Position numbers and translations under genes: made by a program. Positions 20,590 through 30,661 of a stretch of DNA of 64,000 nt are shown in pieces. The stretch spans positions 62,001 through 126,000 of the forward strand of contig LDXR01000004.1 in NCBI GenBank assembly GCA_001443495.1, given 5' to 3'. Each line of letters starts with the position of its first letter. The stretch's first letter is position 1. The stretch comes from a candidate division NC10 bacterium CSP1-5 (GTDB taxonomy: Bacteria; Methylomirabilota; Methylomirabilia; Methylomirabilales; CSP1-5). The notes beneath the pieces were generated by a model. It saw only the letters and a program-made list of their open reading frames with translations, was not told the DNA's origin and did no database searches.

Positions 20590-20765
20590 GCGCTTGGCTC
20601 CCCGTGAGCGGGTGATGTCTTCTGCGCTCGGCACTGCGTTGGCAACCAGGCAAACTGGGGCCTTGTAGCAGACAGGCGGGGATGAGCCGGCCGTGAGCGG
20701 AGGCGACGGTGGAGCAACCCTTTGGACGCCCTCTCGGGTGGGGTGAGGCCCGGGAGGGCGTGGCG
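20590..20765 (+). ncRNA. HEARO/IscB-omegaRNA-like structured RNA candidate
   Basis: A dense set of pairings: GGCTCCCCG (20596) with CGGGG..AGCC (20677-20688), TCTGC (20621) with GCAGA (20668), hairpin CCAG/CTGG near 20647, and a 13-bp hairpin 20726-20761 (ACGCCCTCTCGGG and complement with one G-U). Motifs GCGTTGGCAACC and GGTGGAGCAACC recall the HEARO RNA class, from memory and not verified. No IscB or TnpB gene is adjacent; the gap 20541-21103 otherwise has repeat R5 and a promoter. Confidence 0.4.
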
Positions 20766-20829
20766 CTTCAAACGGGGAAAGGGGGACATTGTCCTCTTCT
20801 CGCGACGGTCCCAGGAGCGGACGGGGTCG

Positions 20830-21337: not shown

Positions 21338-21416
21338 TGAAGTAGGACGGGGGTGGCTGGATTCATCGCCTTCGTCACCTGTCCGGAACCACCGACGGCG
21401 CAATATAACCCTGAAA

Positions 21417-21455
21417 GCCCTCCCGGACACATGGCCGTTCGGGAGGGCGTTTTTC
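21417..21455 (+). terminator. Rho-independent terminator
   Basis: GCCCTCCCG pairs with CGGGAGGGC, followed by GTTTTTCTC. Confidence 0.8.
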
Positions 21456-21530
21456 TCTGGGAAGGTCATTTTTTCAGCAGGGGCGGTCGGATGCCGTCAG
21501 GCTTGTGAGCGGCCGGGGTCAGGCCGGACC

Positions 21531-27052: not shown

Positions 27053-27200
27053 GGGTGGCCTCCTTTCGATGGAAAAGGGGGGTTCTCGCCGCCGACCGCA
27101 GGGCAAGAATACTTCGGGTCTGACGAGGGGTCAAGCCTGCTCTATTCATCCGACCCCTCCCTCGCACAGCGGTCGCATGCCCGCAGATGGTTGTTCGGGG

Positions 27201-27326
27201 CAGCGACGAACCCTCTGCACCGGGTCGGCAGGGACATCTTGGATCTGTCCCACGTTCGCACCCGGGCATTTGACGTCTTTCACGGCCTCATCGACGACCC
27301 GCGAGCACGCGGCTTTGAAGGACTCG
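27201..27326 (-). pseudogene. Truncated copy of the single-pass membrane protein gene at 29145-29495
   Basis: 126 bp identical to 29146-29271. Only the C-terminal part (ESFKAACSRVVDEAVKDVKC) remains; the membrane segment and start are missing. It forms the left direct repeat around the radical SAM gene. Confidence 0.85.
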
Positions 27327-27335
27327 CCGTCCGGC

Positions 27336-27430
27336 CTTGACAAGGGCTCATGGATAGGGTAAAAATCTTACCCTCCAGGCAACCCATGGTGTTGTTGCGC
27401 AGATGACCCATAGAAGAGGGGAGTGGCAAG
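27336..27430 (+). repeat. Partial duplicate of the promoter and riboswitch head
   Basis: About 88 percent identical, by eye, to 29723-29817, including GGGGAGTGGC where the other copy has GGGGAGTAGC; the match then stops just before the radical SAM Shine-Dalgarno. The aptamer is incomplete here. Confidence 0.75.
27337..27365 (+). promoter_or_regulatory. Promoter of the radical SAM gene (duplicated)
   Basis: TTGACA, 17 nt, TAAAAA; the -10 lies within the near-palindrome GGGTAAAAATCTTACCC. Nearly identical to 29724-29752. Confidence 0.65.
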
Positions 27431-27446
27431 CAAAGAGGAGGCACCT

Positions 27447-29003
27447 ATGCTCGTGGTTCTAATTCACATCCGTGACCCCCAGTTCTACGCCCTTCCAGCG
27501 AAGACTCGCAGCAAGAACGGACGTATTCGGGTGATGGGATTTCCCCCCATCGGCATCATGTCGCTCTCGGCTGTACTCAAGCGCGCCGGCCACGAGTGCC
27601 TCATCTTCGACCAGGCGCATCCCGAGACGCCCAATGACGTTATCATGGAGGAAATCAAGCGGCGTCAGCCGGCTCTTGTGGGCTTGAGTTTTCTCAGTAC
27701 CACCAGCTACCCCTACGCAAAGATTCTTGCCCGCCAGATACGTGCCGCCAATTCGCGCGTAAAGTTAGCGTTTGGAGGGGTCTTTGCCAGTCTCAACGCC
27801 CAGTTGGTCAAGCTCCAGTGTCCCGAGGTGGATTTTGTCTGCCGTGGTGATGGTGAACAGCTGATTCTCGACCTGGTTGAGCGCCTGGACGATCCGACAG
27901 GAGTTGAGAGCCTCACCTGGGCAAGGGATGGTCGTGTGATTCAGAATCCCAGCCGGACGATGGAGCGTCACCTCGATCAGTGGCCGTTCCCCGACCGCGA
28001 AGGCCTGCCGTTGGACTTTGTCGAATCCATGCCGCTTGACGTGCCGGCCGTGCTGTCTCTGGAACGGTTCACGACCATGCAGACGTCGCGTGGGTGTCCG
28101 TGGCCCTGCGTGTTCTGTGACATTCCGATCTTCAACGAAGGCAAGTGGCGGTCCCGGAGTCCAGAGCACGTCGTCAACGAGTTCAAATATCTCCAGGAGC
28201 TCGGGTACGGTTCTGTCTACTTCGTCGATGATCACTTCCTGCTGCAGCCCAAGCGCATCGAGGCTATCTGCAAGGGCATCAATGACGCTGGCATTACGAT
28301 CCAATGGGGATGTGAGGGTCGGGTGGACTCGACTGTCCAGCATTTATTCCCAGCGATGGCCAAGGCCCACTGTCGTACCGTCATGTTTGGTATCGAGAGC
28401 GGAAGTCAGAAGGTGCTCGATCGGCTGAAGAAGGAGCAGACCTTGGCGGAAGCGGCGACGGCGGTGAGGAACGCCAAACACGCGGGCATCGAGATCGTGC
28501 ACGGATTCTTTGTCGTCGGCAACCCTGACGAGACGGCTGAGGATATGAAGGCTACCTTTGATTTCGCGGCAAAGCTGCCGCTCGATACGTTCGGGTTCAA
28601 TCGCCTCTGCGTCTATCGCGGGACACCCCTATGGCAGGAATACGTGAAACGTGGGTTGGTCAGTGACCTGACCGATTGGTACAAATACTTCAAATGTTCG
28701 GAGATCGACCCGACCTGTCTCCCTGGCGCGGTGATTAACGAGATACGCCGGGCCGGGTTTCGGCGGCTGTTTCTCTACAAGCTGCTGCATTATCCGGTGC
28801 AAACGTTTCGATTGCTCCGTCGTTTCCTCCGCTATATGCCAGTGCGGGACGTGGTGTACCTCATCATCAAGCCGCTCCTTGGGAAGAAGAAAGGGGCGAC
28901 GAAGGCCGAAGTGTTGTCGCGCGCCGTCGAGCATGGAGCGATGAAGGACGCCGCGGCAAGCCTGACTCAGCTGACTGATGAATCGCTCGAACATGCGCGG
29001 TAA
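27447..29003 (+). CDS. B12-binding-domain radical SAM protein
   Basis: 518 residues. An N-terminal cobalamin-binding-like Rossmann domain (IGIMSLSAVLKRAGHECLIFD...LVGLSFLSTTS) precedes a radical SAM core with CPWPCVFC and the later GIESGSQKVLDRLKK. The C-terminus (about 390-518) is helical and basic. Related proteins include methyltransferases and cyclases of unknown specificity, so no reaction is named. ATG 27447 follows GAGGAGG. Flanked by direct repeats and driven by a copied promoter. Confidence 0.88.
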   Translation: MLVVLIHIRDPQFYALPAKTRSKNGRIRVMGFPPIGIMSLSAVLKRAGHECLIFDQAHPETPNDVIMEEIKRRQPALVGLSFLSTTSYPYAKILARQIRAANSRVKLAFGGVFASLNAQLVKLQCPEVDFVCRGDGEQLILDLVERLDDPTGVESLTWARDGRVIQNPSRTMERHLDQWPFPDREGLPLDFVESMPLDVPAVLSLERFTTMQTSRGCPWPCVFCDIPIFNEGKWRSRSPEHVVNEFKYLQELGYGSVYFVDDHFLLQPKRIEAICKGINDAGITIQWGCEGRVDSTVQHLFPAMAKAHCRTVMFGIESGSQKVLDRLKKEQTLAEAATAVRNAKHAGIEIVHGFFVVGNPDETAEDMKATFDFAAKLPLDTFGFNRLCVYRGTPLWQEYVKRGLVSDLTDWYKYFKCSEIDPTCLPGAVINEIRRAGFRRLFLYKLLHYPVQTFRLLRRFLRYMPVRDVVYLIIKPLLGKKKGATKAEVLSRAVEHGAMKDAAASLTQLTDESLEHAR

Positions 29004-29144
29004 GAATCGAGGGCGGAACGCCTCCGCATTCAACGTCTTCGTCCTGCCTTCACGGAGCCTTGCGTCGGGGCGTCGGGTGGCAGGACCTGACCCTGTATCC
29101 GGAGGACGGTGTCCCTCTGCAGATCGGGTGTCACGCAGGGGAAG

Positions 29145-29495
29145 TCAGCGACGAACCCTCTGCACCGGGTCGGCAGGGACATCTTGGATCTGTCCCACGT
29201 TCGCACCCGGGCATTTGACGTCTTTCACGGCCTCATCGACGACCCGCGAGCACGCGGCTTTGAAGGACTCGTTATTGGCATGCTGTCCGACCCAAAAGCC
29301 TCCGACAAATCCCAGAAGCGCTGCGGTCATGGCGATGGTGAAGACCCCAAGGATCATCCGGACTCTCTGCCGAACAGAAGCCGTCGAGTGGAAGTCTCGC
29401 TCCGCGATCACCGCCTCGTATCCCTCACGATCAACGACCACCACAGGTTTCGTCAGGAGGGCGGCTCGCCCAGAACCCTGCTCTCCGCTTATCAT
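29145..29495 (-). CDS. Single-pass membrane protein, paralogue 1
   Basis: 116 residues: an N-terminal cytoplasmic stretch (VVVVDREGYEAVIAERD), one membrane helix (ILGVFTIAMTAALLGFVGGFWVG) and a C-terminal segment with a Cys and ESFKAACSRVVDEAV. ATG 29495 follows GGGAGAG. Paralogue of the gene at 30311 and source of the fragment at 27201. Function unknown. Confidence 0.7.
   Translation of the reverse strand: MISGEQGSGRAALLTKPVVVVDREGYEAVIAERDFHSTASVRQRVRMILGVFTIAMTAALLGFVGGFWVGQHANNESFKAACSRVVDEAVKDVKCPGANVGQIQDVPADPVQRVRR
29146..29271. repeat. Right copy of a 126-bp direct repeat
   Basis: Identical to 27201-27326; with the promoter duplicates it brackets the radical SAM gene. Confidence 0.9.
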
Positions 29496-29723
29496 TCTCG
29501 CTCTCCCTTGATGCGTCACTTTGGGGGTTTTGGTCCCCCCTCCGGTTCGTCATGATTGGGGGGCAATCCGTGTGCCAAGAGCTGCCCGTCGGAAGTTGTG
29601 GAAATCCAAGCGGTTGCGGCGACGGGCCTCGTCTCATGGGGCCGGTTTTTGAACGGCTGCCCGGAAAGGGGTCAGGGCTCGGGCTTGCCTCTGGATCGGC
29701 CGTGGGAGGGGTAGAATTTTGGC

Positions 29724-29752
29724 TTGACAAGGGCTCATGGATAGGGTAAGAA
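29724..29752 (+). promoter_or_regulatory. Promoter with palindromic -10 region
   Basis: TTGACA, 17 nt, TAAGAA. The -10 is embedded in GGGTAAGAATCTTACCC (29744-29760), a likely operator. Confidence 0.65.
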
Positions 29753-29786
29753 TCTTACCCCCCAGACAACCCTTCGGGTTGTTGCG

Positions 29787-29904
29787 CAGATCACCCGTAG
29801 AAAAGGGGAGTAGCAAGCTCCCCCTGAGGTAGTCGTCAGATGACACCGGGGGTTCGTAACCACGGCCCGCCTCCGGCGTTTCCGACGGCGTATCAGACAC
29901 TTCT
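29787..29904 (+). promoter_or_regulatory. Candidate yybP-ykoY (manganese) riboswitch
   Basis: Contains GAAAAGGGGAGTAGC, the hallmark of this aptamer, a stem CCCCC/GGGGG around AGTCGTCAGATGACA, and AGACACTTCTGACG downstream. An intrinsic terminator follows at once, as expected for an expression platform. The L3 sequence departs from the commonest consensus, so the class is probable but not certain. Confidence 0.5.
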
Positions 29905-29950
29905 GACGCCTTCGCAGACGGAGTACCGCCCGCGAAGGCGTCTTTGTTTT
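29905..29950 (+). terminator. Intrinsic terminator of the riboswitch
   Basis: Perfect 11-bp inverted repeat GACGCCTTCGC/GCGAAGGCGTC followed by TTTGTTTT. Confidence 0.8.
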
Positions 29951-30017
29951 AGGAAGACGGCAGCAGCCCTGGTCAACATGGGGTGAAAGCGCGAGGGGAG
30001 ATAAGGGAGGCCCGGCA

Positions 30018-30107
30018 ATGAATGGGGCAGAGCTCACATCCATTGCGCTTACCGTCGTCCTCCTCGGAGTCCTCATCGGCCTGTTCGCCGGCGGCTGGTC
30101 TCGATAA
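30018..30107 (+). CDS. 29-residue membrane peptide under the riboswitch
   Basis: ATG 30018 has GGGAGG seven nt upstream. The peptide is one hydrophobic helix (ALTVVLLGVLIGLFAGG) between short polar ends (MNGAELTS and WSR). It is the only ORF between the riboswitch terminator and the next terminator, so it is the probable regulated product. Small membrane peptides often bind transporters, but no partner is known. Confidence 0.55.
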   Translation: MNGAELTSIALTVVLLGVLIGLFAGGWSR

Positions 30108-30174
30108 TCGCAAGGGAAGTCACACACGGCCAGGGTCAAGGCCCCCGGCCACCTCCACGCCGCACCGCTCACTG

Positions 30175-30217
30175 AAAAGCCCTCCCGGGTAGAGCACGGC
30201 CCGAGGGGGCTTTTCCC
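30175..30217 (+). terminator. Rho-independent terminator after the small peptide gene
   Basis: AAAAGCCCTC pairs with GAGGGGGCTTTT (one bulge), loop about 18 nt. Confidence 0.75.
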
Positions 30218-30310
30218 TTGCATCCCCTGCCCCCAGCGACCCGCCGGCAGGCATGCCCGCGAAGGCGTTCTTGTCTTTCGGGCGGGTGCCGTCGTAAGGG
30301 AGATGGGCGC

Positions 30311-30661
30311 TCACTGGCTCACCCCGTGCACCGGGCCGGCCGCGACATCTTCGACATGCACCACCCTGCTCCGCTGCGGTTTGGCGCTTCTGAGGGCCTC
30401 ATCGACGACCCGTGAGCATGCGGCCTTGAACGACTCGTCATTGGTGTGCTGCCCGACCCAAAAGCCTCCGACGAACGCCAGAAGCGCCGCGGTCATGACG
30501 AGGGTGAAAACCCCGAGGATTGTCTGGATTCTCTGCCGGACAAAGGCCGTCGACAGGAGTTCTCTGTCTGCAATCAGGACATCATATTCCTGACGATCAA
30601 CAACCGCCACGGGTGTGGTGAGGAGGGCCGGCCACCCAGAACGCTGTGGTCTGTTCATCAT
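30311..30661 (-). CDS. Single-pass membrane protein, paralogue 2
   Basis: 116 residues with the same architecture as the gene at 29145: VAVVDRQEYDVLIADRE, the helix ILGVFTLVMTAALLAFVGGFWVG and ESFKAACSRVVDEAL; the C-terminal tail differs. ATG 30661 follows GGGGGAGG. The 380 bp to the next gene hold a degenerate 24-codon ORF (ATG 30916) and no clear signal. Confidence 0.7.
   Translation of the reverse strand: MMNRPQRSGWPALLTTPVAVVDRQEYDVLIADRELLSTAFVRQRIQTILGVFTLVMTAALLAFVGGFWVGQHTNDESFKAACSRVVDEALRSAKPQRSRVVHVEDVAAGPVHGVSQ

Follow-up and report, generated by a model that had tools for sequence, protein, structure and literature searches.

The yybP-ykoY riboswitch (RF00080) has a conserved GGGGAGUAG loop as one of its features. 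Leader-peptide attenuators of the trp/his type are laid out as a promoter, an SD motif with a short ORF, competing hairpins, a terminator and the gene, and Cyclic di-GMP-I riboswitches (RF01051) occur in many copies per genome before unrelated genes in Geobacter-like genomes; the regulons of c-di-GMP riboswitches comprise many genes, with a make-up comparable to that described here.

We compared these systems with the leader in region 29724-30217 of a 64-kb window (the whole stretch of DNA analysed). In common with yybP-ykoY it is a 5' leader with a terminator and contains the string GGGGAGTAGC, which is probably shared by chance; it differs in that the model is unmatched, the string lies in a drifting hairpin and the targets are not manganese genes. 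The trp/his layout recurs in the promoter, SD-like motif with a putative short ORF, competing hairpin option, terminator and gene, although here the ORF has four codons, includes no amino-acid run and is absent in about half of the copies, and the targets are many. As for Cyclic di-GMP-I, there are multiple genomic copies before many unrelated genes, but the RF01051 model fails on the leader RNA and is absent from 7/7 genomes of the window's genus. We put at about 0.7 the probability that the leader belongs to a Candidatus Methylomirabilota family of cis-acting, riboswitch-like 5' transcription-attenuator RNAs. Transcription attenuators as a kind are already known; this class of leader is most likely new and lineage-restricted, the window leader being a single representative of what appears to be an undescribed RNA control element positioned before dozens of genes.

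Organisation of the leader and its surroundings

The original prediction comprised a promoter, an 11-bp terminator with a T run, a short ORF with GGGAGG at the right distance, and another terminator, and all of these are present (Table 1). The promoter is also kept in the orthologous loci of the related genomes G005 and G002, the terminator stem is followed by TTTGTTTT, the RBS lies 7 nt before the ATG, and a second terminator-like hairpin is found near 30178-30214. The leader RNA folds better than 200/200 shuffled sequences (z -5.2). Two additional 5' hairpins mark the window copy as a long form, and GGGGAGTAGC (29805-29814) is located in the second, where GGGGAG pairs with CTCCCC (29818-29823). 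Its candidate antiterminator uses the 5' arm of the terminator and is lengthened by CAGA/TCTG.

Table 1. Features of the leader and related elements in the window. R1 and R2 are models of the leader family (see below).
Feature	Position	Strand	Basis
Sigma-70-type promoter, TTGACA-N18-AAGAAT	29724..29753	+	1 found, against a shuffle mean of 0.1
5' domain hairpin 1, ACAACCC-TTC-GGGTTGT	29766..29782	+	Sequence; analogous hairpins in long-form copies
5' domain hairpin 2, GGGGAG-TAGCAAG-CTCCCC	29805..29823	+	Contains GGGGAGTAGC; drifting stem in 22 long-form copies
Conserved leader core, family consensus GATGGAACCGGGGTAGGCATAGCCCCTAGCCCACCTCCGGCACAATCGACGGCGCACCAAACATTCA	29839..29904	+	R1 97.1 bits, E 1.8e-22; R2 75.5 bits (this copy is in the training sets of both models)
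Candidate antiterminator, GGCGT (29887-29891) / ACGCC (29906-29910)	29887..29910	+	Predicted from sequence
Intrinsic terminator, 11-bp stem 29905-29915/29932-29942 and T-rich run	29905..29950	+	Covariation, 73 copies
RBS GGGAGG (30005-30010) and 29-aa membrane peptide ORF (30018-30107)	30005..30107	+	Sequence, conservation
Weak, degenerate core copy with terminator, 3' of peptide gene	30116..30220	+	R1 36.8 bits, R2 46.1 bits
Weak core and terminator copy	21341..21458	+	R1/R2 matches
Weak core and terminator copy	20647..20769	+	R1/R2 matches
Core-less duplicate of promoter and 5' domain, immediately 5' of the RBS of a radical-SAM/B12-binding gene (27447-29003)	27337..27431	+	Alignment, Pfam

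At 29744-29760, overlapping the -10 region of the leader promoter, is a perfect inverted repeat, GGGTAAG-AAT-CTTACCC. It is kept in G005 and G002, an altered version is located at 27337, and it is a possible operator besides the leader.

The core-less duplicate is 89% identical to the window leader over 95 nt. It is part of a larger duplication in which 27200-27431 recurs as 29143-29275 together with 29724-29818, on either side of the radical-SAM/B12-binding gene; the duplicated stretch consists of the tail of a minus-strand gene for a small membrane protein, the promoter and the 5' leader. The arrangement looks as if the radical-SAM/B12-binding gene had been inserted there, or its surroundings copied. 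Two paralogous small membrane proteins encoded on the minus strand (29145-29519 and 30311-30661) flank the leader and peptide gene; Pfam gave no family for either, and relatives also flank the orthologous locus in G005.

The gene following the window copy encodes the 29-residue peptide MNGAELTSIALTVVLLGVLIGLFAGGWSR, relatives of which are found in G005, G002 and G003 with the frame and RBS kept and a similar length. Second codon positions account for 1/12, 2/20 and 1/13 of the differences in three comparisons, and this scarcity fits a translated membrane peptide; the evidence for translation is moderate, because synonymous changes are not in excess. The peptide has no match in Pfam. One relative in G003, with no core directly before it, is closely followed by a His-rich membrane protein that matches NicO below threshold. 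Our guess is that the peptide could serve a membrane complex, as a small subunit or as its regulator.

Lack of support for a manganese riboswitch

The leader had been proposed to be a yybP-ykoY switch sensing Mn2+, with GGGGAGTAGC as its aptamer core. The string is indeed there, but it forms part of a simple hairpin that varies in sequence between copies, and the conserved part of the leader (29839-29949) is downstream of it. The position of the GGGGAGUAG loop reads GGGGGTAGCAAGC in G005 and GGGGAGGAGGACG in G002, so that it is not kept in the orthologues. RF00080 has no match at the gathering threshold in the whole 64-kb window and none in any of 60 related genomes, whereas it matches 4/14 control genomes, E. 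coli and B. subtilis among them. An Rfam search of 29600-30300 extended up to E = 10 gave 7 matches, none of them to yybP-ykoY. The manganese reading is unsupported because the family is absent both at the locus and from 60/60 related genomes while the controls are detected, and the genes after other leader copies show no manganese theme. The GGGGAGTAGC string and the terminator speak for this identification; with the model unmatched and the string unconserved among orthologues we rejected it and regard it as extremely improbable. The remaining part of the claim, a terminator-ended leader preceding a conserved membrane-peptide gene, holds without the manganese role.

A connection of the peptide with TerC had also been suggested, and appears weak. 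TerC (PF03741) ends 4.9 kb upstream of the leader in the window, and no recognisable TerC gene appeared among the listed ORFs up to ~1.5 kb from the orthologous leader in G005. In G002, the orthologous leader lies ~0.5 kb downstream of another TerC-family gene (L003:229-990).

Other described RNA families were likewise rejected as the identity of the leader. Rfam 15 gave no family match in the 64-kb window at gathering thresholds; no family was found for the element in 29600-30300, and on 12 sibling loci only tRNAs reached the gathering score, with no match on the element. No description of the leader family was met in those parts of the open-access literature that a search brought up.

A lineage-restricted family of leaders

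BLAST searches with 29724-29960 identified relatives in 7/60 genomes, all of the window's genus and often matching only the second half of the query, and a side-by-side comparison of the loci revealed one recurring element. A covariance model (R1) was generated from 13 of the 17 BLAST matches, leaving out the core-less radical-SAM copy, L011, L012 and L015. With a criterion of E <= 0.01, R1 matches all seven genomes of the genus, with 19, 16, 8, 70, 5, 19 and 71 matches in G000 to G006 respectively, the window's genome being one of those with 19; some of these matches are weak or antisense to the palindromic terminator. A hand count at 60 bits or more gave 8 in G000, 31 in G003 and 42 in G006. 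Matches to R1 are present in 16/35 genomes of the order, including other families. The proposal that the element controls only the membrane peptide is consistent with the window copy but misleading, as the element itself is a genome-wide family. In G006, a single contig of 6.7 kb (L086, contig C108) carries six core copies in the same orientation.

A search of 87 loci gave 142 matches. We kept 90 of these for analysis of their context, discarding duplicates, antisense hits to the terminator and anything that scored below ~49 bits. A second model (R2) was made from 73 of 78 sequences, without L005, L086:4289, L097:3675, L108:1374 and L111:1841. With 40 candidates scored per genome, which caps the counts, R2 matches 18/95 genomes of the class, these 95 being all of the phylum genomes examined; on the same basis, one weak match came from the 60 genomes of families f7-f10, which lie outside the order and are a natural negative control. 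A collection-wide pattern scan returned 13 loci, nine of which are named Candidatus Methylomirabilota, Methylomirabilis sp. or NC10. The other four look like chance occurrences and were set aside, R2 scoring 22.6 bits for one and nothing for three.

Position and target genes

Coding strands were assigned by a codon-usage test for 71 copies. The downstream gene is on the same strand as the element in 57, on the opposite strand in 4 and unclear in 10, and upstream the corresponding numbers are 40, 22 and 9. The window copy is scored as opposite downstream, its short peptide gene being followed by a minus-strand gene. Start codons with an RBS are located 14-28 nt past the end of the element in L004, L078, L040, L091 and L088, and the RBS of the gene begins a few nucleotides from the T run in L004, L078 and L042; some copies are far from a start codon or have no clear neighbouring gene. 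A 5' leader on the strand of its gene is a general feature of attenuators, and the 57/71 copies conform to it.

Of 82 predicted downstream ORFs, 40, chosen by hand and not at random, were compared with Pfam, and 26 of these 40 have matches at E <= 1e-4. Regulators among them are sigma-54 activators with PAS, a histidine kinase, a response regulator with PilZ, PilZ, cNMP-binding and ArsR proteins, and redox proteins are AhpC/TSA, cytochrome c peroxidase, cytochrome c, molybdopterin oxidoreductase and aldehyde dehydrogenase; CMD, GYD, cupin and trypsin-like proteins occur among others, and lipoproteins are also found after leader copies. Several targets recur. A PAS/sigma-54 activator follows the element in G000, G002 and G027, the last belonging to another family, and a small Cys-rich protein does so in G005, G003 and G027; a response regulator with PilZ follows it in G005, with a near-identical protein in G000. 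The target range points to a broad regulon that is not metal-specific.

These positions bear on the idea of a mobile or selfish repeat (MITE/REP-like) in which the promoter and terminator are incidental. The copy numbers of 70-71 in G003 and G006, together with the duplicated surroundings and degenerate copies in the window, are as such a repeat would give. The orientation bias relative to genes and the recurrence of targets across families are not, and phage and plasmid records gave no match to the leader, so that we consider a mobile repeat very doubtful.

Anatomy of the leader copies

There are 82 unique copies at 60 bits or more, 78 of which have 150 nt of upstream sequence. A TTGACA-type promoter is present in 43/78 copies, compared with 5/75 in downstream controls and 3 in reverse complements, and 35/78 have no promoter by this simple rule. 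In the short form, the -10 end is mostly 17-34 nt before the core, with a majority at 21-25 nt; a smaller group constitutes the long form, in which this distance is 77-115 nt. A signature like 5' hairpin 2 is found just before the core in 22/82 copies, and in these 22 long-form copies its sequence drifts while remaining mostly complementary, as read by eye and not by a counted test. The core, of about 66 nt, approximates to GATGGAACCGGGGTAGGCATAGCCCCTAGCCCACCTCCGGCACAATCGACGGCGCACCAAACATTCA and is followed by a terminator of the form GACGCC...GGCGTT.

The terminator is a conserved structure. Among 73 copies there are 26 double-change cells compared with 7.4 in shuffles (0/500 as high), and the arms pair more than in any slid control; a covarying intrinsic terminator thus precedes the gene, as is general for attenuators. 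GGCG of the core can pair with the 5' arm of the terminator, and 4/5 of these pairs are formed in 67-73 of the 73 copies, although they are nearly invariant and covariation is not above shuffles. Similarly, pairing of a GGGG/CCCC core hairpin is common, with covariation not above that in shuffles. Since neither GGCG/CGCC nor GGGG/CCCC covaries beyond shuffles, we infer the antiterminator switch from complementarity and regard it as plausible. Mutual information within the core falls mostly on non-Watson-Crick pairs (5-15, 16-28), partly reflecting two sequence subfamilies and a stop codon described below, and RNAalifold applied to a larger alignment recovers only part of the terminator.

As each typical copy constitutes a complete transcription unit of promoter, RNA and terminator, the family could also consist of stand-alone small RNAs. 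Against this, the T run of several copies leads straight into an RBS, a further promoter-like site is present downstream in just 5/75, and the strand of the following gene is strongly biased (57 same, 4 opposite); we judge this reading quite unlikely.

A short ORF within the core

Many cores contain AGGAG 6-8 nt before a conserved ATG. An SD-like 4-mer is located just 5' of the ATG in 45/79 copies, compared with 18 and 3 in control windows, and GGAG is at a spacer of 8 in 16 copies. A four-codon ORF with a stop at codon 5 is present in 42/90 unique copies, and nearly all of these read M-x-P-G-stop; codons 3-4 are CCG GGG in most copies, and starts include TTG and GTG variants. In 69 ungapped copies, codon 5 is a stop in 46 (TAG 21, TGA 19, TAA 6), CGA in 8 and TGG in 4. 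When codon 5 begins with T it is a stop in 46/53, compared with a mean of 38.3 in shuffled sequences (0/5000 as high), although this statistic is partly inflated because the copies split into two sequence subfamilies. The window copy has no stop at codon 5; it is frame-shifted, giving a 49-codon frame that is not kept in G005.

One refinement of the attenuator reading is that a ribosome initiates at the core ATG and that its pausing or termination at M-x-P-G-stop decides which downstream hairpin forms, Pro-Gly before a stop being a poor termination context. The SD-like motif, the use of all three stop codons at one position, the TTG/GTG start variants and the constancy of codons 3-4 are what ribosome sensing would predict. 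The ORF is nevertheless found in fewer than half of the copies, the others having CGA at codon 5 or a frame shift; requirements of the RNA itself may be what keeps CCGGGG constant, and the stop signal derives in part from the two subfamilies. Ribosome sensing is put forward tentatively, as a reading to be taken seriously although somewhat unlikely. That dozens of genes form an NC10 regulon sharing an attenuator that reads the ribosome at Met-x-Pro-Gly-stop is unlikely.

Discussion

We favour a transcription attenuator that would act as follows. A typical copy would be transcribed from its own sigma-70 promoter through the ~66-nt core, which is followed by an intrinsic terminator ahead of the gene's own RBS. 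The core would determine terminator formation, probably because its conserved GGCG can pair with CGCC at the start of the terminator. The downstream gene, here that for the 29-aa membrane peptide, would be made on read-through only, and the signal read by the core may be a small molecule, a ribosome or a protein. Read-through would be conditional, with one signal acting on many genes at once.

A second refinement of the attenuator reading is a riboswitch whose conserved core binds a metabolite or second messenger. The very conserved core with its expression platform is consistent with this, as is a many-gene regulon that includes PilZ, PAS and cNMP-binding proteins, sigma-54 regulators and redox proteins. 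A further pointer is that c-di-GMP-I riboswitches are present in 12/35 genomes of the order and in 0/7 of the window's genus; RF01051 does not match the leader RNA. However, no aptamer fold emerges for the core, whose covariation is weak and in part not of Watson-Crick type, and no known Rfam class matches. A ligand-binding core is accordingly a possibility of somewhat less than even odds. The genus lacking c-di-GMP-I riboswitches is also the one in which the leader is densest.

Rfam 15 holds no family matching the leader. If ribosome sensing is correct, many genes would be coupled to translation termination or to a factor aiding it; this would amount to a novel principle of attenuation, and the core would represent a novel class of RNA. 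The phylum, which consists of uncultured bacteria, includes nitrite-dependent methane oxidisers, and little is known of its gene control. A structured leader occurring at 60 bits or more at ~31 sites in one genome and ~42 in another would rank among the denser cis-regulatory RNA regulons. With the model, the copies and the targets that recur, its signal can be put directly to the test.
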